Part shown: positions 3,704 to 22,100 of the stretch, piece after piece | Numbering within the stretch: position 1 is the stretch's first letter | How the letters are laid out: each line of letters starts with the position of its first letter | Source: a virus | Virus record (IMG/VR): IMGVR_UViG_3300030329_001194 | Span: 1 to 23,122 of that record | DNA length: 23,122 nucleotides | Direction: 5' to 3' (one strand) | Position numbers and translations under genes: made by a program | Notes under the pieces: generated by a model | What the model was told of the DNA's origin: nothing | The model's database searches: none | Seen by the model: only the letters and a program-made list of their open reading frames with translations

Positions 3704-3706
3704 TAA

Positions 3707-5995
3707 ATGGCAGGATCATATATAGGCAAATACGATACAACAGCTGCTAATAATACTGCAACAGGCACAGGTTCGGTTAGTATAGCTGAAGGTATGCTGC
3801 CTTCTAATGTTAATAATGCTATGCGTGATATTATGGCGGACATTAGGCAATGGTATAATTCAGCTGAATGGATTGAATACGGAGATGGAGCAGGATCATA
3901 TACACCTGCTTATGCATCAGGAACAAGTTTTACAATTGCAGGTGCAGATGTAACTTCTGCTTACCATGTAGGTAGAAGAGTTAAAGCAGTAGGTTCGTCT
4001 ACAGGAACAATTTACGGATCAATTACTGCTACAAGTTTTTCAACAAATACAACAGTTACAGTTTCTTGGGATTCAGGTTCACTATCTAGTGAATCTTTAA
4101 CAATTTATATTGGTATTACAAGTGCAACAAACACTTCAATGCCAGAAACTCCATCTATTACTGGAGATTATACATTAGATGTATCAGGCGATATTATCCT
4201 AGATGCTGATGGCGGAGATGTATTCTTTAAAGATGGTGGTACTACCTTTGGAAGTGCTACTAATTCTTCAGGTAATTTAATTATTAAATCAGGTACAACA
4301 ACAGCTTTAACATTTAGTGGAGCTAATGCTACCCTTGCTGGAGATTTAACAATCTCTGGTGATGATTTAACAATGGGTACTAATACTTCAGGAATGTTAT
4401 TAGTAGCTGATGGTACAAATTTTAATCCAGTAGCAGTTAGTGGAGATGTTACTATGGCTTCTAATGGAGCAGTAACAATTGCTTCAACAGCTGTAGAAAA
4501 TTCTATGTTAGCTGGATCTATTGCTGATAGCAAATTATCTACAATTTCAACAGCAGATAAAGTTGCTGGTGGAGCTATTCAAATTGATAGTGGTACTGAT
4601 GGTACATCTATTACATTAGCAGATACAGATAAATTTTTAGTTGATGATGGTGGTACAACAAAATATGTTAATGCCTCTCAAATTAATAGTTATGTAAGTG
4701 CTTCCGTTGCAGCAGACGATCTTGGATCTGGTGATGCCGCAATTAATCTAACAACTTCATCTGGCAATATTACAATTGATGCAGCAGCTAATGATAGTGA
4801 TATTATATTTAAAGGAACAGATGCAACTTCCGATATTACAATGCTTACATTGGATGGAAGTGAAGCAGGACACGCAACTTTTAATAGTCACGTATCTGTT
4901 GGTGGATCTAATAACGAATTAAGATTTTATGAAGGTGCAAACTATATAGGTTTTGAAGCACCCGCTTTATCAGGAGATCAAATATGGGTATTACCTGCAG
5001 CAGATGGATCTTCGGATCAAGTATTAAAAACAGATGGCTCAGGTAATTTAGGTTGGGCTTCTGTTACAGGTACAATTACTGCTTTAAATAATCAATCAGC
5101 TAATCGATTAACTACAATCGGTTCAACAACAACACAGTTAGATGGTGAAGCAAATTTAACTTTCACAGGTTCAGCATTAACTTGTATAGGAACAATTACA
5201 GTTGGTGTAGATGACACAGGACATGACGTTAAGTTCTTTGGTGCAACAGCTAGTAGATACTGGTTATGGGATGAATCAGCAGATGGTGTAGTACAACAAG
5301 GTACATTAACTGTTGGAGTTGACGATACTGGATATGATGTAAAATTCTTTGGAGCTACAGCAAGTGCTTATATGCAATGGGATGAATCAGAAGATGATTT
5401 AATCCTAGGTGGTGCTGCAAGAATAGTTGTCCCAGAAGGACAATTAGTATTAGGTAGTACAGCTGTAAGTTCAACTGCAGCAGAATTAAATTTATTAGAT
5501 GGTGTTTCAGGATTAGTACAAGCAGATCTAACTAAATTAGCAGCAGTTAATTCTACAGACGCAGAACTTAATATATTAGATGGTTCAGCTAAATCTACAT
5601 CTTCAATTACATTAGCAGATACTGATGCTTTAATTGTTATAGATGGGAATACAACAAAACAAATTCCTGTTTCAGATATTAAAACATACAATCCAGGTGG
5701 AACTGCATGGCAAGCTGTTGTTACAGGTAATACAACAATGGTTTCTGGTAGAGGTTATTTTGTTAATACAACTTCAGCTGCAATTACAATGACATTACCT
5801 GCATCTCCTTCATTAGGAGATAGTGTAACGGTTATTGATTATGCAGGAACAGCAGATTCAAATAATATTACGATAGGAAGAAACTCTCAAAAAATTCATG
5901 GAGCTTCTGAGGATTTAACAGTAGCAACAGAACGAGCTGCCTTTACATTAGTATTTACAGATTCTACTCAAGGTTGGCTCTTAACGGAGAAATAA
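3707..5995 (+). CDS. Tail fibre protein
   Basis: 762 residues. Residues 1-80 are a virion-attachment type domain common in marine phage fibres: 'SIAEGMLPSNVNNAMRDIMA' followed by 'WYNSAEWIEYGDG'. The long middle is low-complexity Gly/Thr/Ser/Asp beta repeats, including 'DTDKFLVDDGGTTKYV', two 'TVGVDDTGxDVKFFGATAS' units (residues 498-516 and 535-553) and two 'AELNLLDG/AELNILDG' units, as in trimeric beta-helical fibres. The C-terminal domain (about 660-762) holds 'GRGYFVNTTSAAITMTLPAS' and ends 'RAAFTLVFTDSTQGWLL', a recurrent marine fibre tip. A strong GGAGGA ribosome site lies six bases upstream. No peptidase or lyase motif is evident, so receptor binding is the likely role. Confidence 0.85.
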   Translation: MAGSYIGKYDTTAANNTATGTGSVSIAEGMLPSNVNNAMRDIMADIRQWYNSAEWIEYGDGAGSYTPAYASGTSFTIAGADVTSAYHVGRRVKAVGSSTGTIYGSITATSFSTNTTVTVSWDSGSLSSESLTIYIGITSATNTSMPETPSITGDYTLDVSGDIILDADGGDVFFKDGGTTFGSATNSSGNLIIKSGTTTALTFSGANATLAGDLTISGDDLTMGTNTSGMLLVADGTNFNPVAVSGDVTMASNGAVTIASTAVENSMLAGSIADSKLSTISTADKVAGGAIQIDSGTDGTSITLADTDKFLVDDGGTTKYVNASQINSYVSASVAADDLGSGDAAINLTTSSGNITIDAAANDSDIIFKGTDATSDITMLTLDGSEAGHATFNSHVSVGGSNNELRFYEGANYIGFEAPALSGDQIWVLPAADGSSDQVLKTDGSGNLGWASVTGTITALNNQSANRLTTIGSTTTQLDGEANLTFTGSALTCIGTITVGVDDTGHDVKFFGATASRYWLWDESADGVVQQGTLTVGVDDTGYDVKFFGATASAYMQWDESEDDLILGGAARIVVPEGQLVLGSTAVSSTAAELNLLDGVSGLVQADLTKLAAVNSTDAELNILDGSAKSTSSITLADTDALIVIDGNTTKQIPVSDIKTYNPGGTAWQAVVTGNTTMVSGRGYFVNTTSAAITMTLPASPSLGDSVTVIDYAGTADSNNITIGRNSQKIHGASEDLTVATERAAFTLVFTDSTQGWLLTEK
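5198..5365 (+). repeat. Two-copy protein repeat with divergent codons inside the tail fibre gene
   Basis: Bases 5198-5254 and 5309-5365 encode the same 19-residue unit (TVGVDDTG-x-DVKFFGATAS) with one residue changed (His to Tyr), 111 bases apart. At DNA level 12 of the 19 codons differ by synonymous third-base changes and one by a replacement change. Confidence 0.85.
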
Positions 5996-5998
5996 TAA

Positions 5999-6967
5999 AT
6001 GGCTGATTATAAAGCTATCAAGGGCTGGACTATTCAAACAGTTTCTAGTGATCCTAGTAATCCTATTAAAGGACAGGTGTGGTATAATTCAACACTTGGA
6101 AAATTAAGAGGTGCTAAATTAGCTGCTGGTGCTTGGAGCACAGGAGCTAATGTAGGAACAGCAAGAGCTAATCCAGAAGGTGCTGATAGATCAACACCAT
6201 CCGCAGGTTTAATTTTTGGTGGAAGAACAAGTGGATCAGCAGGTGGTGGAGATACAGAAGAATATAATGGAACAGCTTGGTCTGAACAAAATGATTTAAA
6301 TGTTAATCGTTGGCGAGGTGGTGGTGCTGGAACTCAAACAGCAGGATTTAGTTTTGGAGGATCAACAGGACCTACAGCTCACGTTGGAACAGCAGAGACC
6401 TATGATGGTACAAGCTGGACTGAAGTTGGCGATCTTACTTCTACTACCAGACCTAATACAGTAGGATTTGGATTACAAACAGCAGCTTTATGCGTTGCTG
6501 GATATGGTGTAGCGGTTGTAGAACAATATAATGGTTCTTCTTGGTCAGAAGTCGGAGATTTAAATACTGCTAGAGGTTCTATGGCAGGATGCGGATCAAC
6601 AACAGCAGGACTTGTAGCACAAGGAGAATCTCCAGGTGGTAATATAGATTCAGTAGAACAATGGGATGGTTCAAGCTGGACTGAAGTTGCAGATTGTAAT
6701 ACTGCTCGAAATCAACCAGGTGGAGGTGGAACATCTACTTCTTCTATATGTTTTGGTGGCGATCCTTCTGCTTTAACAGAAAACTGGGATGGTTCTTCTT
6801 GGACTGAAGTGGGTGATATGTCTACAGCAAGAGGTCGTGCCGCAGCAGCAGGAACATCGAGTTCTGCATTTTGTGCAGCAGGTGCAACACCAGGAGCAAC
6901 GACTGGAGTTAATAATACAGAAGAATGGGATCAATCAGTATCTGGAAATAATTGGGATACAACATAA
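5999..6967 (+). CDS. Kelch-like beta-propeller protein, six repeats (tail-associated)
   Basis: 322 residues. Residues 1-50 are an anchor domain ('MADYKAIKGWTIQTV', then 'KGQVWYNSTLGKLRGAKL', then 'AGAWSTG') shared with two later genes. The rest is six tandem repeats of about 42-48 residues with consensus L-N-T-A-R-x(3-4)-G-x-G-x-Q-T-A-x(5)-G-G ... E-x-[YW]-[DN]-G-[ST]-[SA]-W-[ST]-E-x-x-D. The paired Gly residues and spaced aromatic/Trp fit Kelch-type propeller blades; six repeats suggest one six-bladed propeller. There is no signal peptide or catalytic motif. It follows the tail fibre by three bases and overlaps the next start by TAATG. The likely role is receptor or surface-glycan binding on the tail; this is inferred from neighbours. 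Confidence 0.8.
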   Translation: MADYKAIKGWTIQTVSSDPSNPIKGQVWYNSTLGKLRGAKLAAGAWSTGANVGTARANPEGADRSTPSAGLIFGGRTSGSAGGGDTEEYNGTAWSEQNDLNVNRWRGGGAGTQTAGFSFGGSTGPTAHVGTAETYDGTSWTEVGDLTSTTRPNTVGFGLQTAALCVAGYGVAVVEQYNGSSWSEVGDLNTARGSMAGCGSTTAGLVAQGESPGGNIDSVEQWDGSSWTEVADCNTARNQPGGGGTSTSSICFGGDPSALTENWDGSSWTEVGDMSTARGRAAAAGTSSSAFCAAGATPGATTGVNNTEEWDQSVSGNNWDTT

Positions 6968-8751
6968 TGGCAGATTACAAAGAATTAAAAGGAAAACATA
7001 TTTTAAGTATCGCATCAGACTTGGACAACGCTGCAGGTGAAGGACAAATTTGGTATAATACTACATCTGGAGACTACAAGACGATTGTTAAAGCGGCTGG
7101 AACTTGGTCAACTAGTAATAGTTTGAACACAGGTAAAGAAAAATCTTTTGGCATAGGAATTCAAACAGCTGCTCTTACTATAAGTGGAGAAGGTACAGCC
7201 ACAGTTGAACAATATGATGGTACTTCTTGGTCGGAAATTGCAGATGTTAATACAGCAAGAGAACATGGCGCAGGTTGTGGAACTGTAGCCTCAGGTCTTT
7301 TTTTCGGTGGACAACCTCCTGTTACAGGAAAAACAGAATCCTGGAATGGAACCTCATGGACAGAAACTGGAGATTTGAATACCTCTCGAAGAGGAGGAGG
7401 TGGATCAGGACCAAGTAGCTCTGCTGCTCTTGCAGCTACAGGTTATGATGGTTCTAATAATGTTACAAATGTTGAAAGTTGGAATGGATCAAGCTGGACT
7501 GAAGTGGCTGATGTTAATACTGCACGAAGAACAGGAGCAAGTGGAGGAACGAGCAGTACCGCTTCAATGATAGTAGGAGGCGGAGGACCTGGTAGTGGAA
7601 CAGCAAATGTCGAAGTATGGGATGGAGCAAGCTGGACTGAAGTAACTGATATTAATACTGCTAGAGAAGAATTTAAAGGTGCTCCAGAGACTTCTGCAAC
7701 AAATTTGGTTTTTGGAGGTGCTCATGATCCAGGTCCTACAGCTGCTACAGAATATTATGATGGATCTAGTTGGTCAGAGGTCGGAGATTTAAATGAAAAT
7801 AGACAAAGATTATCAGGAACAGGAACAACGATTTTAGCATTGGCTTCTGGAGGAGGAACTCCTCCCTCTCCCCTTGTTACTGTTGAAGAATGGGATTGGA
7901 CATCTACCCTTGCTGCAGGTGCATGGGCATCGGGTGGAGCAGCAAATAATCCAAGAGGTAAAGGTGGAGGAGCTGGAATTCAAACTGCAGCTGCAGTTTT
8001 TGGTGGTGTCGTTAGTGATACCCCTAAATCAAATACAACAGAAGAATATGATGGTTCTTCGTGGACAAATACAGGAAATTTAAATACAGGTCGACATGCT
8101 GGAGCTGGTTTTGGAGTACAAACAGCAGCTTTTTATTGTGCGGGAGAATCAACAGCTTATGTTGATAATGTTGAATCTTACAATGGTTCAACCTGGTCCG
8201 AAACAACAGATTTAAGTACAGCTCGTGGAGGTGCAGAAGGTAATGGTACAACAACAGCAGGAATGGTAGTTTGTGGTGCAGTAAACCCGCCTAATTTTTC
8301 AACTCTTAACGAACAATGGAATGGTTCTGCTTGGTCAGAAGATGCAGATACTAATACAGGTAGAAATGAGGGTGGATGTGTAGGCACATCAACCGCTGCT
8401 TTATATTTCGGTGGTTTTACTCCAGATTTAACAGCAAACTCAGAAGAATGGAATGGAACAGCATGGGCAGAAGGAAACAATGTAAATAGAGTTATTGGAC
8501 AATCAGGTGATTTTGGCATTCAAACTTCAGCGATTGCTGCTGGAGGAAGTCCAGGAGATGTAGCTAGCACAGAGGAATATGATGGTACTTCTTGGGCTGA
8601 AGTTGCAAATTTATCTACAGCAAGAAATATACTTATTGGAAATAATAATAGCACTGATTCTACTCTAGGATTAGTTATGGGAGGAGATCCAGGCGTTACT
8701 ACTACAGAAGAATGGACACAATCACAAAACATTAAGACAATAGCAGACTAG
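6967..8751 (+). CDS. Kelch-like double propeller protein, twelve repeats
   Basis: 594 residues from the ATG at 6967, which overlaps the previous stop (TAATG). A TTG five codons earlier is in frame, but the ATG gives the same 'MADYKxxKG' start as the paralogue. Residues 1-50 form the anchor ('EGQIWYNTTSGDYKTIV', 'AGTWSTS'). Six repeats follow to about residue 312, then a joint ('STLAAGAWASGG', about 314-325), then six more repeats. Conserved blade features are 'LNTAR', paired Gly, and 'E-x-[YW]-[DN]-G-[ST]-[SA]-W-[ST]-E'. The architecture is two six-bladed propellers in tandem, as if a single-propeller gene had duplicated internally. It probably lies on the tail surface as a host-binding or decoy protein; no enzymatic residues are apparent. 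Confidence 0.8.
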   Translation: MADYKELKGKHILSIASDLDNAAGEGQIWYNTTSGDYKTIVKAAGTWSTSNSLNTGKEKSFGIGIQTAALTISGEGTATVEQYDGTSWSEIADVNTAREHGAGCGTVASGLFFGGQPPVTGKTESWNGTSWTETGDLNTSRRGGGGSGPSSSAALAATGYDGSNNVTNVESWNGSSWTEVADVNTARRTGASGGTSSTASMIVGGGGPGSGTANVEVWDGASWTEVTDINTAREEFKGAPETSATNLVFGGAHDPGPTAATEYYDGSSWSEVGDLNENRQRLSGTGTTILALASGGGTPPSPLVTVEEWDWTSTLAAGAWASGGAANNPRGKGGGAGIQTAAAVFGGVVSDTPKSNTTEEYDGSSWTNTGNLNTGRHAGAGFGVQTAAFYCAGESTAYVDNVESYNGSTWSETTDLSTARGGAEGNGTTTAGMVVCGAVNPPNFSTLNEQWNGSAWSEDADTNTGRNEGGCVGTSTAALYFGGFTPDLTANSEEWNGTAWAEGNNVNRVIGQSGDFGIQTSAIAAGGSPGDVASTEEYDGTSWAEVANLSTARNILIGNNNSTDSTLGLVMGGDPGVTTTEEWTQSQNIKTIAD

Positions 8752-8796: not shown

Positions 8797-9090
8797 ATGG
8801 CAAATGACATCTTTAATTACTGCGTAGCAACGAACACTGGAAAGGGTTTCATCACACATGATGATAGCCGAAGATTCTGGATTAGTGGCAATCCTGGTAA
8901 TGTATGGGTTGCAACAGACTGTGTAGAATCAAGACATTGGATTGCAAGAAACAATGGTGTTTCTAAAACTAAAGAAGAAGCACAAGCTATTGTAACAGCA
9001 GAAGTTGAAGCAGCACAAGCAGCTTGGGATGCTTTATCTGATGAAGAAAAAGCATTAACATCAAGACCAGGCGACATAACTCTTCCCTAA
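8797..9090 (+). CDS. Hypothetical 97-residue protein inserted between propeller genes
   Basis: 97 residues with a very strong ribosome site (AAAGGAGGAG, ending about five bases before the ATG), the best in the window. The N-terminal half is beta-like and aromatic ('FNYCVATNTGKGFITHDD', 'FWISGNPGNVWVATD', 'HWIARNNGVSKT'). The C-terminal half is an acidic Ala-rich helix ('EEAQAIVTAEVEAAQAAWDALSDEE'-type). It does not share the Kelch consensus. The 45-base gap in front (8752-8796) and its own strong start suggest independent, high-level translation, as for a chaperone or adaptor needed in excess. The helical half could be a fibre-assembly helper. I do not recognise a family. Confidence 0.7.
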   Translation: MANDIFNYCVATNTGKGFITHDDSRRFWISGNPGNVWVATDCVESRHWIARNNGVSKTKEEAQAIVTAEVEAAQAAWDALSDEEKALTSRPGDITLP

Positions 9091-9099
9091 AGGAATTAA

Positions 9100-10926
9100 A
9101 TGGCAACGTACCGAGAAATTAAAGGACTCACCGTTCCTTATTTAGATGCTGATTTACCTTCTGCTTCTGCAGATACGCAAGAAGGACAGGTTTGGTATAA
9201 CTCAGCTACAGGAAAGCTACGAGCTTTTATATCCTATAATACATGGGCTACATCTAGTGCTGCAAGTACAGGTCGTGGAGAATTAGGTGGTACTGGACCT
9301 CAAACTGCTGCTTTTATATGTGGTGGTAGAAGTCCAACTGTAAGAGCACATACCGAACATTATAATGGTAGTGGCTGGTCAGAAGTTGCTGATCTTAATT
9401 CAGCTAGACATGCTTTAGCTGCTTTAGGTACGCAAACAGCAAGTTTAGCTTATGGTGGAGCATTTCCTGGAAGCACTGATTCGGATATATCGGAAGAGTT
9501 TGATGGTTCTTCTTGGTCAGAAGGAGACGATTTAAATACAGCAAGACAAGATTTAGGTGGTACTGGAGCTGGAACACAAACAGCTGGGTTAATGGCTGCG
9601 GGTAATGTTAAAGCAGGAGGTACTACTACCAAACAACTTTGTGAGTCTTACAATGGAACTAGCTGGTCAGAAGAATCTGATTTAGGAACAGCTAGATATT
9701 ATACGGGAATTATTGGAGCACAAGATGCTGCTCTTTGTGTATCAGGAGGTCCTGCACCTGCACCAGATGTAACTGTTAATGTAGAATCTTGGAATGGTTC
9801 ATCATGGACAGAAACTACAAATGTAAATACAGGAAAAGCTCAAGGAGCTTCTTTTGGAACACAAACTCATGCAATTAATGCAGGTGGTGATAATCCAGGT
9901 CCTTCTGAACTTAATGCAGAAGAATGGGATGGCACTTCTTGGACAGAAACGACTAACATATCCTCAGAAAAAAAATACCATACAGCTGGAGGAAGTGGAA
10001 CAGCAGGAGCTCATTTAGCTGGTTACGATATGAGTAATTATGTAGGTACAACAGAAGAATGGAACAAATCAATTTTAACCTATACCCCTGCAGCATGGGC
10101 AAGTGGTGGAAATTATGGACAATCTTTAAAAGGAGTTGGTGGAGCAGGAACTCAAACTGCTGGACTTGGATTTGGAGGTCAACCTCCCACTAAAGCTGAA
10201 ACTTATGAATACGATGGTACGGCTTGGACAGAAACAAATGATTTAAATACAGCAAGATATAATACACAAGGAACTGGAACTCAAACTGCAGGATTAGCAG
10301 CTGGAGGATATGATGCTCCAAATCGTAAAGACGAAGTAGAAGAATATAATGGTTCTACTTGGAGTGAACAAAATGATATACCTGCTGCTACATATAATGC
10401 GGGTATGGCTGGAACTCAAACTTCAGCTCTTTTCTTTGCAGGTAATAGTCCAGCTGGAGGAAGTACTGCTGAAACTTATGAATATGACGGCACAAATTGG
10501 ACTGATGGTGGAGATTTAAGTACAGCTAAAAATGCTAACACAGGATGTGGAACACAAACAGCAGGATTATCAATGTTTGGAGAACCTGGTGTATCTAGTG
10601 AAGAATATAATGGAACAGCTTGGACAGCTGGAGGAAATGGGAATATTGAACGATATGGTTTAGCTGGATGGGGAATCCAAACGGCAGCTGGAGTAGCTGG
10701 TGGTTATGGACCTGGATACTCAAGTCTTTCTGAACTTTATGATGGGACCTCTTGGTCAACAAATGCCTCTTTAAGTACAGCAAGAAGTGCGATAGGAACA
10801 GCAAGAAATTCAACACAAGAAGCTGGATTAGTATTTGGAGGATCAAGACCAGCTAATAGTGATGCAACAGAAGAATTTACAGGTGTAACAACAGCCGCAG
10901 AAGCTGCTGATATTGACTTTGACTAA
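9100..10926 (+). CDS. Kelch-like double propeller protein, twelve repeats (third paralogue)
   Basis: 608 residues, preceded by an AAAGGAATTAA leader right after the previous stop. The N-terminal anchor ('MATYREIKGLTVPYLDADL', 'QEGQVWYNSATGKLRAF', 'NTWATS') is homologous to the two earlier paralogues. Repeats one to six run to about residue 320. The joint 'YTPAAWASGG' (about 327-336) follows, then six more repeats to near the end, closing with an acidic tail ('AAEAADIDFD'). Loops between strands vary strongly in length and sequence while the blade core is kept, as in receptor-binding propellers. It is a stand-alone late gene with a short 29-base gap after it. Role as for its paralogues: probable tail-surface binding, by inference. 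Confidence 0.8.
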   Translation: MATYREIKGLTVPYLDADLPSASADTQEGQVWYNSATGKLRAFISYNTWATSSAASTGRGELGGTGPQTAAFICGGRSPTVRAHTEHYNGSGWSEVADLNSARHALAALGTQTASLAYGGAFPGSTDSDISEEFDGSSWSEGDDLNTARQDLGGTGAGTQTAGLMAAGNVKAGGTTTKQLCESYNGTSWSEESDLGTARYYTGIIGAQDAALCVSGGPAPAPDVTVNVESWNGSSWTETTNVNTGKAQGASFGTQTHAINAGGDNPGPSELNAEEWDGTSWTETTNISSEKKYHTAGGSGTAGAHLAGYDMSNYVGTTEEWNKSILTYTPAAWASGGNYGQSLKGVGGAGTQTAGLGFGGQPPTKAETYEYDGTAWTETNDLNTARYNTQGTGTQTAGLAAGGYDAPNRKDEVEEYNGSTWSEQNDIPAATYNAGMAGTQTSALFFAGNSPAGGSTAETYEYDGTNWTDGGDLSTAKNANTGCGTQTAGLSMFGEPGVSSEEYNGTAWTAGGNGNIERYGLAGWGIQTAAGVAGGYGPGYSSLSELYDGTSWSTNASLSTARSAIGTARNSTQEAGLVFGGSRPANSDATEEFTGVTTAAEAADIDFD

Positions 10927-10955: not shown

Positions 10956-11642
10956 ATGAAAGAGAAAAGAAACATACACGAACTTATTGTAAAAGAAGAA
11001 CCTCATCTTCATGAAATATTAGATCCTGCACAAGTTGCTAAATTTAAAGAATTAACAAACGAACTTAGAGATACCTGGACAAAGAAACAAATGTTCAGAA
11101 CAAAAACAGAGATGGAATTTTCTGTTTTAAATGATGCTAAATATCCAACCAATGCTGCTAAGTATTGGCAATGTGTGAGAGAACAAAATACTCACATGGA
11201 AAACTTAATGCATTTATCCTTTGATGCTCGTAAAAATGATATTGAAATAAAACAAAAATTAAAAGAACTAGAAGAAGAAAAAGACGAATTAAAAAAAGAA
11301 CTCATACAAGTAGAAATAGATGAAAAAACTTATAGTAAAGCTAGTATGCAACTTGTTGCAGCTCATCGTATGAGAGAAGTTACTGAATGGTCTAACTTTA
11401 AAAAGATTTATAATGATGGTACTTTTGATGATAAGAATGTAGATACACACCAACTATTATCATACAAAAAGATCATGAAGAATAGAAAGAATACATTAAC
11501 TCCTGGATCTTCACAACCTGAAGTCTTTAATGTATTAGGTCAATTGCAAACAATTGAACGGGTGGAAGAAGAACGAAAAGCCCTTGGACACGAAAAGAAA
11601 AAGGCTATAAGTGAAACACCTAAATACGGAAAACAAGGCTAA
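10956..11642 (+). CDS. Coiled-coil hypothetical protein
   Basis: 228 residues, largely helical and highly charged. A clear coiled coil spans about residues 95-122 ('KLKELEEEKDELKKELIQ'). N-terminal 'HELIVKEEPHLHEILDPAQV' and C-terminal 'LLSYKKIMKNRKNTLTPGS' flank it. No membrane segment, signal peptide or enzymatic motif is seen. The start lacks a good ribosome site ('CCTCTAT' precedes the ATG), so expression may be low. Its last 32 bases overlap the sulfotransferase gene in another frame, tying it to the modification cassette. It might scaffold or recruit the following enzymes, or be a fibre assembly factor, but neither is shown. Confidence 0.65.
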   Translation: MKEKRNIHELIVKEEPHLHEILDPAQVAKFKELTNELRDTWTKKQMFRTKTEMEFSVLNDAKYPTNAAKYWQCVREQNTHMENLMHLSFDARKNDIEIKQKLKELEEEKDELKKELIQVEIDEKTYSKASMQLVAAHRMREVTEWSNFKKIYNDGTFDDKNVDTHQLLSYKKIMKNRKNTLTPGSSQPEVFNVLGQLQTIERVEEERKALGHEKKKAISETPKYGKQG

Positions 11643-12405
11643 ACAAATCTACTTTCTTTGTGCGATGCCAAGATCAGGGAATACCTTATTTGCATCACTC
11701 ATGAATCAAAATCCAGAGATTGCTGTTACCGCCAATAGTATCACCTTGGAAATTATGAAAGATTTATTTCTTCTTAAAAAAATAGATGCCTTTCAAAATT
11801 TTCCTGATGAACAATCTTTAGATAATGTTATGGATGAAGTTTATAATCTTTATTATAAACATTGGAATTATAAAGTTATTATTGATCGAGGACCTGTTTG
11901 TACATCTAGCAATCTAAAGATCATGCAAAAACATTTTAAACAACCTATACGATGTATTGTATTAGTTAGAGATTTATTAGATGTTTTAGCTTCTTATATT
12001 AAATGGTTTGAAACTGAGCCAACTGCTTTTTTAAATCAATTAAAAACAATAGATGAAAAATTAAGTCGACTTATGCACAAGTATGGAGCAATAGCAAAAG
12101 GACTTTTATCTATTCAGTATTTACTTCAGCATCCTGAGATGGCTGTGTTTATTAAGTATGATGATTTAGTTGTTAATCCAGAACAAGAATTAAGAAAAGT
12201 CTACACTTTTTTAAATCTCCCCTATTTTCCGCATAAGTTTATTGATCTAGATCAAATTACCGTGAATGGTTTACAATATAATGATAGTATTACAGGTAAA
12301 AATATGCACACCATTAGAACACAAAATGTTCACAAGGTTGATAATCCATATAAGAATATGATACCAGAGAGATTTATTAAGGAATATGGACACATCCGAT
12401 TTTAA
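11611..12405 (+). CDS. PAPS-dependent sulfotransferase family protein
   Basis: 264 residues from a GTG start. Transfers a sulfuryl group from PAPS to a hydroxyl, phenol or amine in characterised members. The 5'-phosphosulfate loop is 'CAMPRSGNTLFASLM' (residues 17-31; P20-R21-S22-G23-N24-T25), and the 3'-phosphate site is R120-D-x-x-D-x-x-x-S128 ('VLVRDLLDVLAS'), with the same eight-residue Arg-Ser spacing as cytosolic sulfotransferases. The PRSGxTL loop and Cys-free helix also recall tyrosylprotein sulfotransferases. The length is normal. There is no signal peptide, so it acts in the host cytoplasm. It overlaps the gene before by 32 bases and the oxygenase after by 20. The acceptor is unknown. 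Confidence in the family is high, in the substrate none. Confidence 0.82.
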   Translation: MKHLNTENKAKQIYFLCAMPRSGNTLFASLMNQNPEIAVTANSITLEIMKDLFLLKKIDAFQNFPDEQSLDNVMDEVYNLYYKHWNYKVIIDRGPVCTSSNLKIMQKHFKQPIRCIVLVRDLLDVLASYIKWFETEPTAFLNQLKTIDEKLSRLMHKYGAIAKGLLSIQYLLQHPEMAVFIKYDDLVVNPEQELRKVYTFLNLPYFPHKFIDLDQITVNGLQYNDSITGKNMHTIRTQNVHKVDNPYKNMIPERFIKEYGHIRF

Positions 12406-13045
12406 ATTTATCTGGTTAGGGCAAACTATTTTAAGATATAAAGTTCCTTTAGATGTTTTTAATACTCTTAATGGAATTTACGAAACTAATTTTGTTAATC
12501 TTCCTGATGCTCATAAACAACTTGTGGGGAAAATAAGAAAAGAAAATTCTTTGTTTTTTGGTGGTGCTCCCAATAATAAAATGCACCGACATAATTTACT
12601 TCCTCCTTATGTTTTAAATTGGTTTGAAAGTAAATTTAGACATTATTTAGATTTTAATAAAATACATCCTTATACACTTCATATGAACTCTATATGGATT
12701 AATGAGATGAAAGCAGGAGAATACAATCCTATTCATATTCATCAAGGCACGATTTATACAGGACTTTCATCAGTCATGATGCTTAAACTTCCTAAAGATA
12801 TGGGTCCTGAATATGCAAGACCTGATACTCCTTTAAATGGTAAGTTACAAATCGTAGGTGCAGCTAATGGTCAATTTGTAAAATCTGACTATTCACCTAT
12901 TGCAGAAGAAAGAGATTTTTATATTTTTCCTTATGACATGAGGCATTGTGTTTATCCTCATACCAATCCTAATGCCATAAGACGCACACTTGCAGCCAAC
13001 ATGGATGTAGAGTATAACCCTGTTAGTACAAGGACAGCAGGATGA
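12386..13045 (+). CDS. Putative 2OG-Fe(II) oxygenase A (2OG-FeII_Oxy_5-like)
   Basis: 219 residues, start ATG with AAGGAAT just upstream and a 20-base overlap with the sulfotransferase gene. The order fits a double-stranded beta-helix dioxygenase: 'SIWINEMKAGEYNPIHIHQG' with H117-x-H119, then 'SSVMMLKLP', then 'FYIFPYDMRHCVYPH' with distal H187, then 'AIRRTLAANMDVEY' with R199/R200 as the likely 2-oxoglutarate carboxylate binder. The usual H-x-D/E is replaced by H-x-H, as in the related enzyme at 13623. Such enzymes hydroxylate or oxidise using O2, 2OG and Fe(II). The N-terminal 100 residues are less conserved and may bind the substrate. The substrate is unknown. Confidence 0.68.
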   Translation: MDTSDFKFIWLGQTILRYKVPLDVFNTLNGIYETNFVNLPDAHKQLVGKIRKENSLFFGGAPNNKMHRHNLLPPYVLNWFESKFRHYLDFNKIHPYTLHMNSIWINEMKAGEYNPIHIHQGTIYTGLSSVMMLKLPKDMGPEYARPDTPLNGKLQIVGAANGQFVKSDYSPIAEERDFYIFPYDMRHCVYPHTNPNAIRRTLAANMDVEYNPVSTRTAG

Positions 13046-13626
13046 TACCTACAGAACCTACTTGGAGAAGTTATATAGCTGAAACAACTCAGCCTATCTT
13101 TTCACCTAAACAATGCCAGATGGTTATTGATAAGGGCATGAGTTTAAAAAAAGAAACAGCTGCAGTAGGTATGGGTAATCCCAAAGGAAGTGGTATTGAT
13201 CCTGACAAAAGAATTACAACAATTAGTTGGATTCCTTTTAAAGAAATGCCAGAGATGTATCGTGATATTGAAAAGACTATGCTTCAAGCAAACAATAATC
13301 ACTTTGGTTTTGAAGGAATGCGATTAACTGAACCTGGACAATTTACACATTATCTTACAGGTGGATTTTATGAATGGCATATGGATAATGATGTAGTAGG
13401 AAAACATCAGCCTCCTGTTCGTAAAATCTCAATGACACTTCTGTTATCTGATCCTTCTACCTTTGAAGGTGGTGAATTAGAGTTTATGAGTAAAGGTAAG
13501 ACTGCAAAGTTAAAACAAGGTCAAGCTATTTTCTTTGCGAGTTGGTTACAGCACCGAGTTAAACCCGTTACTAGAGGTGAGAGAAAATCTTTAGTCATGT
13601 GGTTTGGAGGTCCTTCCTTTAAATGA
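13042..13626 (+). CDS. PKHD/prolyl-4-hydroxylase-type 2OG-Fe(II) oxygenase B
   Basis: 194 residues with a complete catalytic set: H113-x-D115 ('YEWHMDND'), distal H171 ('WLQHRVKPV') and R181 ('TRGERKSLVMW') ten residues later for 2-oxoglutarate. 'SMTLLLSDPSTFEGGELEF' is the PiuC/PKHD hydroxylase signature, and the size matches that family (about 200-230). Known relatives hydroxylate peptidyl proline or unknown protein targets; PiuC itself is linked to iron uptake. The start overlaps the previous stop by ATGA. It is the most canonical of the four oxygenases in this cassette and the one most likely to be catalytically active by inspection. Confidence 0.85.
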   Translation: MIPTEPTWRSYIAETTQPIFSPKQCQMVIDKGMSLKKETAAVGMGNPKGSGIDPDKRITTISWIPFKEMPEMYRDIEKTMLQANNNHFGFEGMRLTEPGQFTHYLTGGFYEWHMDNDVVGKHQPPVRKISMTLLLSDPSTFEGGELEFMSKGKTAKLKQGQAIFFASWLQHRVKPVTRGERKSLVMWFGGPSFK

Positions 13627-14204
13627 TTACTGAGCATCATTTTCCAACAATCATTTATATTAAAGATCTACCGAATGCTCTTCAGTTGAATCAATATTTA
13701 GAACAAAAGATTATTCAATGGAGCCAACAGGATAAAGGCGAACAAAAAACTAATGCAGGTGGATGGCATAGTAAAACGGATATGAATAAAAAAGAAGAAT
13801 ACAATCCGTTAACAAAAGAACTCTTTAATATGCAAGATGAGATTTATCAAAAAGAGCATTTGTCTTTAAAACCTGTACTTGGAAATATGTGGGCAAATAT
13901 TAATTATCCAAAATGTTTTAATAGACCTCATATTCATCCTAACTCATTATTCTCAGGTGTTTATTTTATTAAGACTCCTCAAAAATCTGGTAATTTGATG
14001 GTATACGATCCAAGACCAGGAGTTCAAATGGCAATGCCTAGTCGTAAAAAGGGAGATCTTCCTCCTGCATCGTGGAGAGAAGTACATTACGAACCTGTTG
14101 CAGGAAGATGTATTATGTTTCCTTCTTGGTTATGGCATGAAGTAAAACCTAATGAAAGTAATGATATAAGAATATCTGTATCGTTTAATTTTTTACAACG
14201 ATGA
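13623..14204 (+). CDS. 2OG-Fe(II) oxygenase C (2OG-FeII_Oxy_5 family)
   Basis: 193 residues. The family pattern is plain: 'GNMWANINYPKCFNRPHIHP' with H103-x-H105, 'SLFSGVYFIKTPQKSGNLMV', 'YDPRPG', then 'IMFPSWLWHEVKPNES' with distal H172 and 'IRISVSFNF' with R183. This matches the putative 2OG-FeII_Oxy_5 family as I remember it, where H-x-H-P precedes the SGVYY strand. The N-terminus ('EHHFPTIIYIKDLP') is also typical. Start and stop both overlap neighbours by ATGA. Substrate unknown; family members in marine phages and bacteria are uncharacterised as far as I know. Confidence 0.82.
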   Translation: MITEHHFPTIIYIKDLPNALQLNQYLEQKIIQWSQQDKGEQKTNAGGWHSKTDMNKKEEYNPLTKELFNMQDEIYQKEHLSLKPVLGNMWANINYPKCFNRPHIHPNSLFSGVYFIKTPQKSGNLMVYDPRPGVQMAMPSRKKGDLPPASWREVHYEPVAGRCIMFPSWLWHEVKPNESNDIRISVSFNFLQR

Positions 14205-14845
14205 GTTTCAAAGAAAAGAAATATGAAGTTATTCCCAATGCTATTTCTTACGAACTCGCTAATTTTGCTTTTAATTACTTTTTACTTAAAAGAGATGCTG
14301 TAAACTGGATGTATCAGAATAATTACATATCAGAATTTACACCAGGATTTGGTACTTGGAAAGATAAACAAATTCCTAATACCTATTCCTGTTATGGTGA
14401 TTTTTTCATGGAAACTTTAATGATGAAAGTATTACCTATTATGCAAAAGTTTACAGGTTTAAATGTTATACCAACGTATACTTATACTAGAGCATATAAA
14501 AAGGGAGATATTTTAAAAAGGCATAAGGATAGACCTAGCTGTGAAATATCCACAACCTTACATTTAGGTGGAGAACCTTGGTCTATTTATATAGATCCTA
14601 CGGGATCTAATAACGTGATTGATGAATATAAAAATATTCATAAACCTAATGCTCCTAAAGGAGTACCCGTTGATCTTAACGTAGGAGATATGTTAATATA
14701 TAGCGGATGTGATTTAGAACATTGGAGAGAACCTTTTGAAGGTAATGTCTGTGTTCAAACATTTCTTCATTATAATAATGCAGATGGAAAATTTGCTTAT
14801 AATAATAAATTTGATAAACGACCAATGTTAGGAATACCAAAATGA
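14201..14845 (+). CDS. 2OG-Fe(II) oxygenase-like protein D
   Basis: 214 residues. 'YTRAYKKGDILKRHKDRPSC' places H108-x-D110 as the metal pair, and 'MLIYSGCDLEHWREPFEG' gives distal H174. After it, where most relatives have Arg about ten residues on, there is 'NVCVQTFLHYN' with Gln186 and no Arg, so co-substrate binding may differ; R176 directly after the histidine is a possible substitute. 'EISTTLHLGGEPWSIYID' is the jelly-roll core between them. I recall the same 'HW-RE...Q-x-FLHY' end from marine-phage relatives, so it may be family-typical and not decay. Coupled by ATGA on both sides. Substrate unknown. Confidence 0.75.
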   Translation: MSFKEKKYEVIPNAISYELANFAFNYFLLKRDAVNWMYQNNYISEFTPGFGTWKDKQIPNTYSCYGDFFMETLMMKVLPIMQKFTGLNVIPTYTYTRAYKKGDILKRHKDRPSCEISTTLHLGGEPWSIYIDPTGSNNVIDEYKNIHKPNAPKGVPVDLNVGDMLIYSGCDLEHWREPFEGNVCVQTFLHYNNADGKFAYNNKFDKRPMLGIPK

Positions 14846-15072
14846 AACAATTACTATTAGCACTACAAAGACAATACGAAGCTAAAATATTAGAAGCAGA
14901 TTATCAGATTAAGCATTATAGTTCTCATAATTTAGCTGTTAATGCTCATTCAGATATTATAAATGAACTTGATAAATGGGTAGATCGTAAAGCCTTTTAT
15001 GAAGGTAAGTTAAAACAAGTTATAACTTATATGCCTAAAGAAGATAAGAAAGATAAAAAGGATGGCAAATAA
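14842..15072 (+). CDS. Small helical protein closing the oxygenase cassette
   Basis: 76 residues, helical throughout: 'KQLLLALQRQYEAKILEAD' with heptad-like hydrophobics, 'DIINELDKWVDRKAFYEGKL', and a Lys/Asp-rich tail ('KEDKKDKKDGK'). No membrane segment or motif. It overlaps oxygenase D by ATGA and the next gene by 11 bases, so it belongs to the same coupled transcript. The size and layout would suit a small coiled-coil partner of a larger protein; the family is not recognised. It may belong with the virion genes downstream and not with the enzymes. Confidence 0.65.
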   Translation: MKQLLLALQRQYEAKILEADYQIKHYSSHNLAVNAHSDIINELDKWVDRKAFYEGKLKQVITYMPKEDKKDKKDGK

Positions 15073-15820: not shown

Positions 15821-16555
15821 ATGTCAATCGGAGGCGGAGGAAGTGGCGGTGGAACACAAACTACTGTAGCTTCTACACAACCATATGGTCCAGCGGAACC
15901 TGCTTTAGGGCAGATTCTGTCTGAAGCACAAACTATATATGGGCAAGGTCCAGCAGCAGCTGGATATGTTGCTCCTACAACTCAAACCCTAGAAGGTATA
16001 GCAGCTCAAGAACAAATAGCTAATGCTGCTAATCAGCAAATATTAGGTACTATTCAAGGTCAGTATACGAATCCTTTTTTATCTCCTTTGATCGCACAAT
16101 CTGCTCAAGATGTGTATTCTAATGTAGCTGGACAATTTTCTGGTATGGGTAGAACACCAACAAGTCCAATGGCACAACAGGCTGTTATAGGTCAAGTTGC
16201 ACAAAAAGCATTACCTTATGCATTTGGTCAATTAGAACGAGAACGAGCAAGACAACTTCAAACAGCTCAAAGAGTACCAAGTTTAACTGCTGTTGGCGGA
16301 CAATTAGAAGATATACAAAGACAACAACAAATGGCTCCAAGTGATGCGTTAGCTCAATATTATAATGTTGCAGCTCCCATTGCTTTTGGGCTACCAACAC
16401 AAAACGTACAAAATCAACTACCAGACGCTAACCCAATAACTATGGCTGCAGGCGGAGCAATGACAGGAGCAGCTTTAGGATCTATGTTTCCTATGGGAGG
16501 AGGCATGGGTGCACTTATTGGTGGCGGTATGGGATTATTAGGAGGATTATTATAA
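15821..16555 (+). CDS. Internal virion protein with C-terminal glycine zipper (gp14-like)
   Basis: 244 residues. The N-terminus is Gly-rich ('SIGGGGSGGGTQTTVAS'); the middle is Ala/Gln-rich and helical ('GIAAQEQIANAANQQILGTI', 'QLERERARQLQTAQRV'). Residues 208-244 form a glycine zipper ('MTGAALGSMFPMGGGMGALI', then 'GGGMGLLGGLL'), a segment able to insert in membranes. Small ejected proteins of podoviruses (T7 gp14 class) have a similar size, an Ala/Gln-rich body and a membrane-active part. The ribosome site is AAGGAGAA about 12 bases upstream. It overlaps the next micropeptide by TAATG. An outer-membrane pore component during ejection is the inferred role. Confidence 0.65.
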   Translation: MSIGGGGSGGGTQTTVASTQPYGPAEPALGQILSEAQTIYGQGPAAAGYVAPTTQTLEGIAAQEQIANAANQQILGTIQGQYTNPFLSPLIAQSAQDVYSNVAGQFSGMGRTPTSPMAQQAVIGQVAQKALPYAFGQLERERARQLQTAQRVPSLTAVGGQLEDIQRQQQMAPSDALAQYYNVAAPIAFGLPTQNVQNQLPDANPITMAAGGAMTGAALGSMFPMGGGMGALIGGGMGLLGGLL

Positions 16556-18671: not shown

Positions 18672-19169
18672 ATGATTAAAATATTCCATCCCAGAGGACT
18701 GAAAGAACTTATCTGGAAAGCAGGAAGAACTACTGAAACAGTAGCTTTTAAAAGATTAATTAAAAAACATCCTAAGCAAGGCATTAGAGCATTTACAATT
18801 GCTCAACGCAAAGGATTAAAAAAAGTTCAAGCTCTTGGTAAAAGACATGGAGTTGAAGGACTTGGTGTATCTTTAAGAGGAAAAAGAGTTAAACCTTCTA
18901 GATATAAACCCACACATTTTGATGATCCTAATAAGGCTTATGCTGATCTACATCAAATTAAAGGTAGAGCTTCAGCAGAAGCTAAAGAAACATTACATGG
19001 ATGGGGATTTAGACCAAGAAATCCTAAATTTTACAAAGTTTCAGAAAGAAGAATAGATCCTTTAACAGGAAGAGCTTCTCTTGTTAGAGTTCGTAAAGGA
19101 CCACAATATATAAAACATAAAAATTTATCTGCTTGGATCAAAAGTGGTAGAAAAACTTATAAAGATTAA
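18672..19169 (+). CDS. Small basic protein upstream of the large ejection protein
   Basis: 165 residues, very rich in Lys and Arg ('IWKAGRTTETVAFKRLIKKH', 'FTIAQRKGLKKVQALGKRHG', 'LSAWIKSGRKTYK'), with predicted pI well above 10. No membrane segment, signal peptide or recognised domain. The middle contains 'HQIKGRASAEAKETLHGWGF' and 'FYKVSERRIDPLTGRASLVR', reminiscent of small beta folds. A GGAG site lies in front and it overlaps the large gene after it by TAATG. A basic, co-translated partner in the ejection set could bind DNA or neutralise charge in the capsid. That is inference; the family is not known to me. Confidence 0.62.
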   Translation: MIKIFHPRGLKELIWKAGRTTETVAFKRLIKKHPKQGIRAFTIAQRKGLKKVQALGKRHGVEGLGVSLRGKRVKPSRYKPTHFDDPNKAYADLHQIKGRASAEAKETLHGWGFRPRNPKFYKVSERRIDPLTGRASLVRVRKGPQYIKHKNLSAWIKSGRKTYKD

Positions 19170-22100
19170 TGGCTAATGATTTTAATGTTAATGAATTTAA
19201 ATTAAAAGACCCAGTACGTAGTATACCCGATGGTTTAAAAGAACCAGTAAAGGATTCAACGCCTGGGTTTTTTCAGTCTCTTCGTAATCCATATCACCTA
19301 TGGTTAGAAGAATCTTTACCAGCATCACTCTACCAATGGATGACTGGCAATACAAAAAAGAAACAAGCACAAGAAGCACTCAATTACATTCGTAATAATC
19401 CTCAGCAACAAGGATCTAAAATTTATCAGGAAGCTGAAAGAAAACTACAAAGATTTGGTTATCTTTTAGATGATGGTCCTATGTCCATAGACATGAAGGA
19501 AGTTGGTAATATGATTAAAGCCAACCCTAAACTCTTTGGAGCTGAATTAGTTAATATGATTATGGCAGATCCTTGGTTATTATTTATGCCTCTTGGATGG
19601 CATAGATTAGGTAGAGGAGTTGTTAATGGTATTAGATTAAAACGAGCTAAGAATCTTAGCATGACTACAGTAGCAGCTAAGAAAGCTGATAACATGGCTG
19701 ATATTAAAGTTGGAGCTATGGCTACACTCGGAATACCTTTTGCATTCTCAACTGCATGGCAATTAGGAGAAGATGCTACATTAGATCCTAAAAGAACTAC
19801 AGTAGAAACTACATTAGGAGCTACAGCAGGAGCTTTAATCTCAGTAGGTTTTGCAGGCACAGGAGCTTTAGCACAAAGATTAACTCAAGTTCCTAAAAAT
19901 AGAGTTTTACAAATACAAAACCAAGTTTTAAATAAACATGGAATTAATCCTGAGAAATTATTAGACTATAATGAAAATGGTATTTTCCGTTCTGTTGATG
20001 AACTTATAGACGAGATACAAAAACAAACTAGAATTATTACAGATCCTAAAAAATTTCAAGTTATTAAAGCAGATATGACTGCTGCCTTAAGACAGCTGAA
20101 TGAACATGGAAGAGATATGTCTTTTAATGCTGCTCTTAAAAGAGGTGGTACTCTTGCAGCTATAGGTGCAACTGCACAATTCTTAACAGCTGATGATGAG
20201 AAATTATTAGCAACAGCTAAGGGTGCAGGAGCTGGTGCAGCTATATATTTAGCTGGAAGATTCCTTACAAGTAAACTTAGGCAAATGCCTAAAGACTTTG
20301 ATGCTGCTACTATATCAGCAGAAGCTACATTAGATGCAGCTAAAATGAGTACAGTTAAATTAAACTCTGCTGCATATGAACTAGCTAATAAGATTAAACA
20401 AAATATACCTGATGCAATAGATTCTAGACGTAAGATATTTTATTACTTAACTAGAGCTAGAGTTGATAGAAAAAACTTTAGATATGATGGTAAATTAAAA
20501 CCTATTGCTGATTCAGAATTATCTGCTAGAGAATTAGATGCAGCTAAAGCTATTAGAAAAACATTTGATAGTTTAGAGCAATCTCTTGGTAAAGAAGGTA
20601 GTGGTTTATTATTTAATAAAAGAGTTAACTATCTTCCTTTATTATGGGAACATTATAATCCTAAGATACAACCTTTTAGATTTGTTAAAGAATTTGATCA
20701 AACAGTAACTGGTCCATCAGGTAAGTTTCAGTTTGCTAAACGTGGTGTCTTTGGAGATATTAACGCAGGACTTCAAAAGAACTTTAAAATTAAACCAGGT
20801 TATGATGATCCTACTGAACTTATTAAAGTATATACTCATGCAGCAGGTAAAGCATTATCTACTAGGGCTTTAATTACAAGTTTAGAAACTTCAAAAATAG
20901 AAGGTCTACCTCTCTTAATCAGAAGAGGAACAAGACCTGTTAATCAAAACTATATAGAATTTAAACATCCTTACTTTGAAGGTAAAGAAGGATTCCCTTA
21001 TATCCATAGAGGAATGGATAAATCATTAAGAATGGTTTTCGATGCTACAGATGAACAACCATTAATGTCAGCACTTTTTACGACTAACTTAATGATGAAG
21101 AGATTAGCGGTAGGTTTTTCATTTTTCCATGCAGGTGCATTAGTTGAATCAATGTGGTTTGCTGGATCTAAATGGAATTTTATTAAGAAAATATTAAACC
21201 CAAGATCTAAAGCTGAATTAGAAAATCTAATTAATAATCCTAGAACTTATGTTAATGAGTTTCCTCATGCAGTAAACCAATTAGAACAACATGGCTTTAG
21301 GGATGTTATTCAATTTTCTAGAGGATCAGGATTACAAATATCAACACCTGAAGATATAGGATTTGATAGATTCTATTATAACTTAAGAGGAGTTGATACC
21401 TTTTTAAAAAGACATTTTGGTATTTCATCTAGTGGTAAAGCTGAAAAAGTTTTTAAATGGTTTGATAGAATAACTTGGGATAGAGTATTTACTCATGCTA
21501 AACTTAATACTTTTCTTACAGCATTAAATAAATCTGTACAGCCTGGAGATACTCAAGCTATTATATACAGGAAAGCACAACAAGCAGCACAGTTTTCTAA
21601 TGATGCTTTTGGTGGACAAGACTGGGCTAAATTAGCTAATAGCATACAAACACCTTGGTTAAAGAGAATGATGCAAACTACATTTGCACCAGGCTCTAGA
21701 GGTTATATGCAGTTGTTAATGTTTGCTCCTGACTGGACAATATCTAATGTTAGAATTATTGCTAAGTCTTTACCTGCATTTGAAGCTGATCCACAGTTAA
21801 GAAGACTATACCAATTTTATTTTGCTAAAGCTGCACTTACTTATGCAGCAGCAGGATCTGCATTAAACTATGCATTTAGCGGACACTCTATATTAGAGAA
21901 TACAGATCCAACAAGAATTGACTTAGGGAATGGTGAAGTACTTACTTTCTCAAAACAGTTAATGGAACCTTTCCATTGGATAACTGCTCCACAATCTACT
22001 GGTCTTAAAAAGATAGGAGCATTACCTAGAGTTACAATAGAAGTATTAACAAATAAGAAATACTTGACAACTAAGTGGAGTCCAAACATCACTAAGAAAG

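Follow-up and report, generated by a model that had tools for sequence, protein, structure and literature searches.

The IMG/VR virus record IMGVR_UViG_3300030329_001194, analysed over its entire length (23,122 bases; the window), contains a run of five consecutive genes that encode a sulfotransferase (ST) of the type that uses 3'-phosphoadenosine 5'-phosphosulfate (PAPS) and four proteins assigned to, or resembling, 2-oxoglutarate (2OG)-Fe(II) oxygenases (OX1 to OX4). The window holds the last part of a head protein gene, then podovirus-type tail genes, genes for repeat proteins, a coiled-coil gene, ST, OX1-OX4, and later genes (Table 1). An earlier note on this DNA had described the run at 11611-14845 as coupled, and both the places of the genes and their overlaps stand: ST and OX1 share 20 nucleotides (nt), and OX1/OX2, OX2/OX3, and OX3/OX4 share 4 nt each. 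(A further overlap, of 32 nt, joins ST to the coiled-coil gene before it.) The tail-repeat proteins have no Pfam match, and "propeller-like" or kelch-like is a label taken from their repeat pattern, not from any model; the pattern is marked by the motif E-x-[YWF]-[ND]-G-[ST]-x-W, of which the window has 24 copies (15 Y, 8 W, 1 F).

Table 1. Tail-repeat genes, cassette genes, and their immediate neighbours in the window
Feature	Position	Strand	Remarks
Propeller-like tail-repeat protein A	5999..6967	+	Candidate substrate with 5 copies of the motif (3 Y, 2 W); PHROG 27227, 1e-67
Propeller-like tail-repeat protein B	6952..8751	+	Candidate substrate with 9 copies of the motif (5 Y, 4 W); PHROG 27227, 6e-129
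Small protein between repeat proteins	8797..9090	+	Homologues at the equivalent place in related loci
Propeller-like tail-repeat protein C	9100..10926	+	Candidate substrate with 10 copies of the motif (7 Y, 2 W, 1 F); PHROG 27227, 1e-120
Coiled-coil / helical protein that usually heads the cassette	10956..11642	+	Homologues in 26 other loci; helical model
ST, PAPS-type sulfotransferase, optional member	11611..12405	+	264 amino acids, GTG start; PF13469, PF00685
OX1, 2OG-Fe(II) oxygenase-like, PF13759 type, HxH...H...R	12386..13045	+	219 amino acids
OX2, 2OG-Fe(II) oxygenase, PKHD/prolyl-hydroxylase type, HxD...H...R	13042..13626	+	194 amino acids
OX3, 2OG-Fe(II) oxygenase-like, PF13759/TIGR02466 type, HxH...H...R	13623..14204	+	193 amino acids
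OX4, 2OG-Fe(II) oxygenase by predicted fold, HxD...H	14201..14845	+	214 amino acids; PHROG 2954
Small open reading frame (ORF)	14842..15072	+	PHROG 1811; overlaps OX4 by 4 nt

ST belongs to the PAPS-dependent sulfotransferases by both profile and motif. It scores above the Pfam cut-offs (PF13469, 50.3 bits against 27; PF00685, 44.4 bits against 22), and both members of the PAPS-binding pair named in the earlier note, PRSGNT and RDxxDxxxS, are conserved: among 15 sequences PRSGNT, R120, D121, and S128 are invariant and D124 is nearly so. The nearest solved chains are those of protein-tyrosine sulfotransferase 1 (TPST1, E 1.1e-5), which shares the PAPS motifs; the match covers just two short stretches. 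A sulfotransferase 73% identical to that of the window lies at L012:6285-7067 in a different phage context, between what look by sequence like a ribonucleotide-reductase-like gene before it and an Fe-S scaffold-like gene after it. A scan of bacterial genomes for relatives of ST gave 13 pattern matches, none of them a relative. The sulfotransferases of cyanophages S-SKS1 and S-SRM01 are 26-27% identical to the window ST over 94-96% of its length and lie outside any fixed four-oxygenase tail cassette. Single sulfotransferases also occur in viral genomes of the OM43 type, and PMC10580990 calls the function of these enzymes in phages unclear.

OX1, OX2, and OX3 are likewise identified by profile. 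OX2 matches PF13640 with 62.8 bits, and OX1 and OX3 match PF13759 with 35.3 and 93.8 bits (cut-off 27 in each case). OX2 carries the full set of ligands, H113-x-D115...H171...R181, invariant in 31 sequences. OX1 has H117-x-H119...H187...R199/R200 (invariant in 36 sequences) and OX3 has H103-x-H105...H172 (invariant in 31 sequences, with R183 nearly so), which agrees with the earlier description of one full motif set and several variant ones; because HxH replaces HxD/E, OX1 and OX3 are called oxygenase-like. The solved relatives 3bvc and 2rg4 likewise have H-I-H at the place of the triad. OX3 matches these two PF13759/TIGR02466 proteins over residues 57-190 (E 3e-26 and 6e-24), both of them solved but uncharacterised, whereas OX1 is a distant branch of TIGR02466 (22.5 bits against a cut-off of 62.5) and has no match in a sequence search of the PDB at E<=1. 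In profile-profile comparison OX3 pairs with OX2 at 85.7% probability and OX1 with OX3 at 46.5%. OX2 shares its motif set and related profiles with PKHD-type and prolyl hydroxylases (PiuC, YbiX, Pseudomonas P4H, PHD2), yet scores under the NCBIfam cut-offs. A scan of bacterial genomes with OX3 found six relatives, the best 52% identical (L202:6001-6561, on a contig of an alphaproteobacterial metagenome-assembled genome); a search of the same strand in the 7.5-12.6 kb of sequence around them revealed no other cassette gene.

OX4 presents a different case, in that its best database match (PHROG 2954, 2e-50) is labelled "ferrochelatase" and no relevant Pfam family was found. Its AlphaFold2 model (pLDDT, the predicted local distance difference test, 87) has the double-stranded beta-helix fold, and Foldseek returned 604 PDB matches at E<=0.001 (best E 5e-9). 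Nearly all of the 50 matches listed are 2OG oxygenases, including prolyl hydroxylases, SnoN/SnoK, and PHD2, the exceptions being two trypanosome RNA-editing subunits and two uncharacterised proteins; among these 50, Z is 15.0-16.7 over 153-187 aligned residues. The metal-binding triad H108-x-D110...H174 is invariant in 42 sequences. Although OX4 shares the fold of the PKHD-type and prolyl hydroxylases, it is just 10-18% identical to them and lacks an arginine at the usual place past the second histidine: the window protein has no R/K about 10 residues after H174, and R97 and R176 are invariant. Because no signal linked OX4 to OX2 in profile-profile comparison, the assignment rests on fold and residues; a sequence search of the PDB gave just two unrelated matches (E 0.64 and 0.69). 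No ferrochelatase profile was found in Pfam at E<=1 for OX4, for HTVC033P gp58, or for HTVC023P gp67, nor in NCBIfam at E<=0.1 for OX4. As no ferrochelatase model matched and the predicted fold is that of an oxygenase, identification of OX4 as a ferrochelatase was rejected, and the label of PHROG 2954 is apparently wrong. This matters because PMC9599517 and PMC11561400 build on that label (a figure legend of the latter names phrog2954). In PHROG 3531, also labelled "ferrochelatase", the first half matches OX4 and the second half OX2, as if two oxygenase domains had been fused. Both "ferrochelatase" families, 2954 and 3531, appear to be 2OG oxygenases. In all, profile search and structure prediction place the five genes as the earlier note had proposed, OX1-OX3 and ST by profile and OX4 by its predicted fold.

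The arrangement recurs well beyond the window. A survey seeded with OX3 gave 55 IMG/VR loci (counts of gene presence and order, here and below, are per locus, not dereplicated, and include near-identical contigs), and in 38 of the 39 with room on both sides the order OX1-OX2-OX3-OX4 is kept; the exception, L071, is without OX2 and OX4. Since the identical order recurs in dozens of contigs, chance is excluded. The link to tail genes that the earlier note had drawn is equally regular: tail-repeat genes, which are adhesin-like, precede the cassette in every locus with room to see them, and in 27/27 a tail-repeat gene lies directly 5' of the coiled-coil gene. Homologues of the coiled-coil protein in the 26 other loci are 48-97% identical to it, and at least 561 relatives of it exist; its helical model has a pLDDT of 78, and neither a match in phage records nor a viral fold match at E<=0.001 was found. 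Purifying selection acts on ST and OX1-OX4 (median ratio of nonsynonymous to synonymous substitution rates, dN/dS, 0.10-0.18 with 11-15 close sequences per gene) and on the coiled-coil gene (dN/dS 0.04 among close relatives).

ST behaves differently from the oxygenases. It lies between the coiled-coil gene and OX1 in 14 of the 40 OX3-seeded loci that show both of these genes and is absent in 26. At least seven gains or losses of ST are seen on the oxygenase tree, and the close sisters L059 and L069 differ in its presence. Where ST occurs, it mostly keeps one place: among the best 80 of at least 596 stretches encoding a relative of ST, 65 of the 66 with downstream room continue into OX1-2-3-4 (the remaining one has an extra OX2), and directly before ST, in the 59 with upstream room, there is a coiled-coil gene in 49, a ParB-like gene in 4, a tail-repeat gene in 2, and nothing recognisable in 4. 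Consequently, the co-occurrence and fixed order that had been proposed hold for OX1-OX4, which travel together, and hold for ST mostly as to its slot; independent variation among relatives, which the earlier note had named as grounds for giving up its idea, is found for ST and not for OX1-OX4. That note had pictured a pathway in which hydroxylation is followed by sulfation of the new hydroxyl. As an obligatory sequence this was rejected, because ST is optional among cassettes that retain the oxygenases.

The cassette is also found in different phage backbones. By its backbone the window phage is closest, among isolates, to the Pelagibacter phage HTVC106P (head protein 61%, next gene 79%, nozzle 48% identical), and its host is therefore likely to be a SAR11 bacterium, a suggestion that comes from sequence likeness. 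Contigs nearest to the window share 67-97% identity with it in the cassette proteins and 42-51% in the repeat proteins, whereas a nozzle-like protein, encoded after OX4 in place of the PHROG 1811 small ORF, is only 23-28% identical to the window nozzle over part of its length; a 48-kb record with the same arrangement (G002) has no nozzle gene of the window type. HTVC023P gp72 falls in this other nozzle family, while the window nozzle is of the HTVC106P type. (The nozzle profile, like other small profiles, was built from the loci themselves, HTVC023P included, so that its E-values are not independent.) Since the nozzle differs while the cassette is alike, the cassette and the tail repeats occur in two podovirus backbones. 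A further comparison is offered by an 88,284-base IMG/VR record (G001, L017-L021) that matches the full length of the window at 99.6%. Most window genes occur twice in G001, about 44-45 kb apart, and its final 933 bases repeat the start of the window; it has the appearance of a related pair of phages, each about 44 kb, that have been chained, either an assembly chimera or a concatemer, and not an 88-kb genome. Compared between the two copies, the nozzle and the genes at 15062 and 15385 show 84-92% identity; for the cassette the figure is 50-70% and for the repeats mostly 28-42%. One copy has ST and the other does not.

A further observation concerns the repeats themselves, in which the aromatic position of the motif varies with the presence of ST. 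In a first set of loci this residue is tyrosine in 396/531 copies from 43 loci with ST and in 63/252 copies from 14 loci without it (phylogenetic generalised least squares, PGLS, on the cassette tree, p=0.012, 57 loci), a signal that emerged after 20 residues and 5 motifs had been screened. The test on new contigs, which alone was fixed beforehand, gave the same direction: tyrosine in 606/705 copies from 44 loci with ST and in 156/240 from 19 loci without (PGLS p=0.043). (The first set kept 57 rows. Manual removal took out 21 loci that duplicated a contig or an identical cassette; also excluded were loci that did not show both the coiled-coil gene and an OX1 after it, those with less than 200 amino acids of repeat protein, and exact repeats. 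The new contigs were drawn with coiled-coil and OX1 profiles, and 63 of their 132 loci, L210-L341, were kept; 9 were dropped for want of a coiled-coil gene, 7 for want of a following OX1, 17 as already used, 14 as duplicates, and 22 for having fewer than three motifs.) Over the combined 120 loci (87 with ST, 33 without), the mean share of tyrosine is 0.79 with ST and 0.48 without (PGLS p=0.007), tyrosine rising and tryptophan falling within the motif when ST is present. The share is below that of the nearest relative with ST in 29 of the 33 loci without ST, above it in 3, and equal in 1, comparisons that are not independent because partners are shared. The residue before the aromatic position is acidic more often with ST (0.57 versus 0.27, p=0.003), and no change accompanies ST at four control positions within the motif (p 0.24-0.98). 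The covariation of ST with the repeat tyrosine is thus a repeated lead, not proof.

Taken together, these results suggest a tail-tailoring cassette of podoviruses that probably have SAR11 bacteria as hosts, in which the oxygenases would hydroxylate tail proteins and ST, where present, would sulfate tyrosines of the repeats; we hold this reading tentatively, as one that could well prove wrong. Each of the four oxygenases would have a site preference of its own and would act on side chains of freshly made tail proteins during infection. ST would transfer sulfate from PAPS to tyrosines at the repeat position, often beside an acidic residue, and the sulfated tyrosines would add negative charge that might alter adsorption specificity or stability. 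The covariation points to a target hydroxyl for ST that already exists in the repeat and is not made by an oxygenase; since cassettes can do without ST and it appears to track tyrosine, use of oxygenase-made hydroxyls by ST is improbable. A kinase and a nucleotidyltransferase found in some relatives could increase the supply of PAPS. The full version, a post-translational assembly line serving the phage's receptor-binding apparatus in which four site-specific hydroxylases and an optional tyrosine sulfotransferase (with its own PAPS supply in some relatives) decorate the propeller repeats and the turnover of ST is matched by Tyr/Trp exchange, is more doubtful.

The kinase/nucleotidyltransferase pair belongs to a wider group of inserts. 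Downstream of ST in L051, L058, and others come a kinase resembling adenosine 5'-phosphosulfate (APS) kinase and a small nucleotidyltransferase; the pair, 129 and 115 amino acids long, the second resembling nicotinamide mononucleotide (NMN) adenylyltransferase (NMNAT), is encoded by overlapping genes (L058:6059-6779, L051:228-954, L089, L093, L100, and others) that stand in several orders. Among 42 loci seeded with the kinase, in which gene orders are sometimes quite different, ST occurs in 30, an OX gene in 33, and neither in 8. It is possible, judging from sequence likeness, that the pair raises PAPS supply. A competing explanation, itself tentative, is that it makes nicotinamide adenine dinucleotide in the manner of NadR and so says nothing about sulfation. 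In favour of the dinucleotide, the transferase is closest to NMN adenylyltransferases and resembles ATP sulfurylase only weakly (17.6 bits against a cut-off of 24.3, L051), so that PAPS supply is no more than a possibility. Against synthesis of the dinucleotide, ST accompanies the kinase in 30/42 loci and all 11 kinase members match the APS kinase model at E<=0.01, general AAA models matching as many; for PF01583 the scores are 23.9 bits in L058 and 20.1 in L051 (cut-off 21.1), with AAA models slightly higher. When matches that cover more than the P-loop are compared, APS kinases come out best among solved chains, though two long chains with multiple P-loops rank above them. For the window phage itself, an own supply of PAPS was rejected, as no kinase or transferase gene of this kind was found in the pieces of the 88-kb record. 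Relatives of the kinase also stand at the start of longer ORFs in KU682439 (DLP6) and OR548257 (Salvovirus), and no sulfotransferase is annotated within 4 kb of them; DLP6 also encodes an Fe(II)-dependent oxygenase, three genes upstream of its kinase relative.

Several observations weigh against the tail-tailoring reading. OX1 and OX3 lack the carboxylate (D/E) of the facial triad. In the cultured relatives HTVC033P and HTVC023P, OX2-OX4 adjoin glycine-rich fibre genes instead of repeats. Sister-pair tests of the tyrosine signal are not significant, with few informative pairs: 5 pairs in the first set (2.0 the same way, 0.1 opposite, 2.9 tied), 9 in the new set (3.0, 0.9, 5.1), and 14 overall (4.0, 1.5, 8.6). 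Some loci without ST are rich in tyrosine (L247, 1.00; L234, 0.90; L330 and L278, 0.85), and some with ST are poor in it (L058, 0.36; L089, 0.30; L087, 0.20; L161 and L239, 0.00, with 4 and 3 motifs). In the composition of whole repeat proteins G, W, V, N, A, and I shift with ST as well, whereas total tyrosine, unlike the motif position, is not significant after tree correction (p=0.13) and was rejected as a marker; a difference in repeat type could therefore explain the signal. Finally, genes of G001 outside the cassette diverge as much as the cassette does (those at 825, 50%; 16665, 44%; 17605, 57%; 19169, 74%), so that this pair of phages alone is no proof of exchange as a unit.

If the enzymes instead modify a glycan, either a host surface polysaccharide whose alteration blocks superinfection or a glycan of the virion, the oxygenases would hydroxylate sugars or lipids and ST would sulfate them. 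Two genomic neighbourhoods favour this account and tell against tail tailoring: the distant ST of Synechococcus phage S-SRM01 lies among glycan genes, adjoining a glycosyltransferase and a nucleotide-sugar epimerase, and in HTVC023P a gene annotated as glycosyl transferase group 1 follows the oxygenases at a distance of about 6 kb. A short stretch at the N-terminus of ST also matches NoeE (25 bits against a cut-off of 500), a sugar sulfotransferase, and the fold matches of OX4 include EvdO1 and HygX, oxygenases of sugar-containing antibiotics. A role in glycan modification seems rather unlikely all the same, as no glycosyltransferase or sugar-nucleotide gene was found among the proteins searched between repeats and nozzle (the window genes and eight insert proteins from five loci) and covariation of ST with a repeat tyrosine would not be expected.

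A further alternative keeps the oxygenases as enzymes acting on tail or other proteins and takes ST to be unrelated, acting on a small molecule or a host protein, its slot being a landing place for extra genes. The absence of ST from so many cassettes and the L012 homologue in another phage context fit such an arrangement, as does the variety of the inserts. Besides the ST slot there is a second variable one, flanked by OX3 and OX4, where ParB-like genes stand in many loci and another, weakly matching sulfotransferase-like gene in five. Between them the two slots take up ParB-like genes, the kinase/nucleotidyltransferase pair, and this second sulfotransferase-like gene. The recurrence of the tyrosine covariation on new contigs makes an unrelated ST unlikely, as do OX1-4 following 65 of the 66 close ST relatives with room, the OX2-like gene next after a distant ST in L077, and the OX2-like ORFs about 2 kb after ST in S-SKS1. 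That the genes serve auxiliary metabolism, the oxygenases and the "ferrochelatase" reshaping the iron, nitrogen, or 2-oxoglutarate metabolism of the host, is the published reading for pelagiphages and marine phages in PMC9599517, PMC12753301, PMC11561400, and PMC5628999, and is improbable given that OX4 has an oxygenase fold and no ferrochelatase match and that the genes are part of the tail module, with no metabolic genes next to them.

Some further genes were seen in passing. The short ParB_N-like proteins of the two slots are exemplified by L003:6185-6616, L050:2524-2823, and L054:2383-2706; the second sulfotransferase-like gene (PF03567, 18.2 bits against a cut-off of 22; L045:1666-2496, L046:2219-2821, L123-L125) looks unrelated to ST. 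More distant OX1/OX3-like genes lie on the - strand of G001 (26130-26822 and 69524-70222, one per chained phage), and an OX1-like gene is present in HTVC106P (3441-4094). Among the later genes of the window, 15821-16555 encodes a P22 gp7-like ejection protein (a weak match), and 19169-22354 encodes a protein of 1061 amino acids that matched neither PHROG nor Pfam entries under the thresholds applied and is likely to be an internal virion protein.

Few unexplained genes of marine phages are as common as those for 2OG oxygenases. Groups of them are already described: according to PMC9599517, HTVC023P-type pelagiphages have several non-orthologous 2OG oxygenases nearby (not stated to be adjacent), one of which adjoins every "ferrochelatase", as OX3 adjoins OX4 in the window. 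The earlier suggestion that no similar system had been described is too strong. The cultured phages HTVC033P and HTVC023P have OX2, OX3, and OX4 in the window order after tail genes, and a search of both found no OX1, coiled-coil partner, or ST. PMC9599517 reads the OX4 family as ferrochelatase and the gene group as auxiliary metabolism, and the word sulfotransferase is absent from its main text; together with PMC11561400, it ties 2OG oxygenases and "ferrochelatase" to abundant, seasonal pelagiphages as metabolic genes. That phage oxygenases structurally resemble prolyl hydroxylases is stated in PMC12774648. Searches of the open-access literature turned up no phage sulfotransferase-oxygenase cassette, sulfated phage protein, or tyrosine sulfation of a bacteriophage protein. 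What the present analysis adds, beside oxygenase groups known from HTVC023P-type pelagiphages, is ST in the cassette, the corrected identity of OX4, the APS-kinase-like neighbours, and the tyrosine link. A vague metabolic story is thereby replaced by a precise one that can be tested by mass spectrometry, in part in the cultured phages HTVC023P and HTVC033P. If it is true, gain and loss of ST with the exchange of tyrosine and tryptophan would constitute a chemical switch of adhesin charge, and thus a new route by which these phages may change their host specificity.

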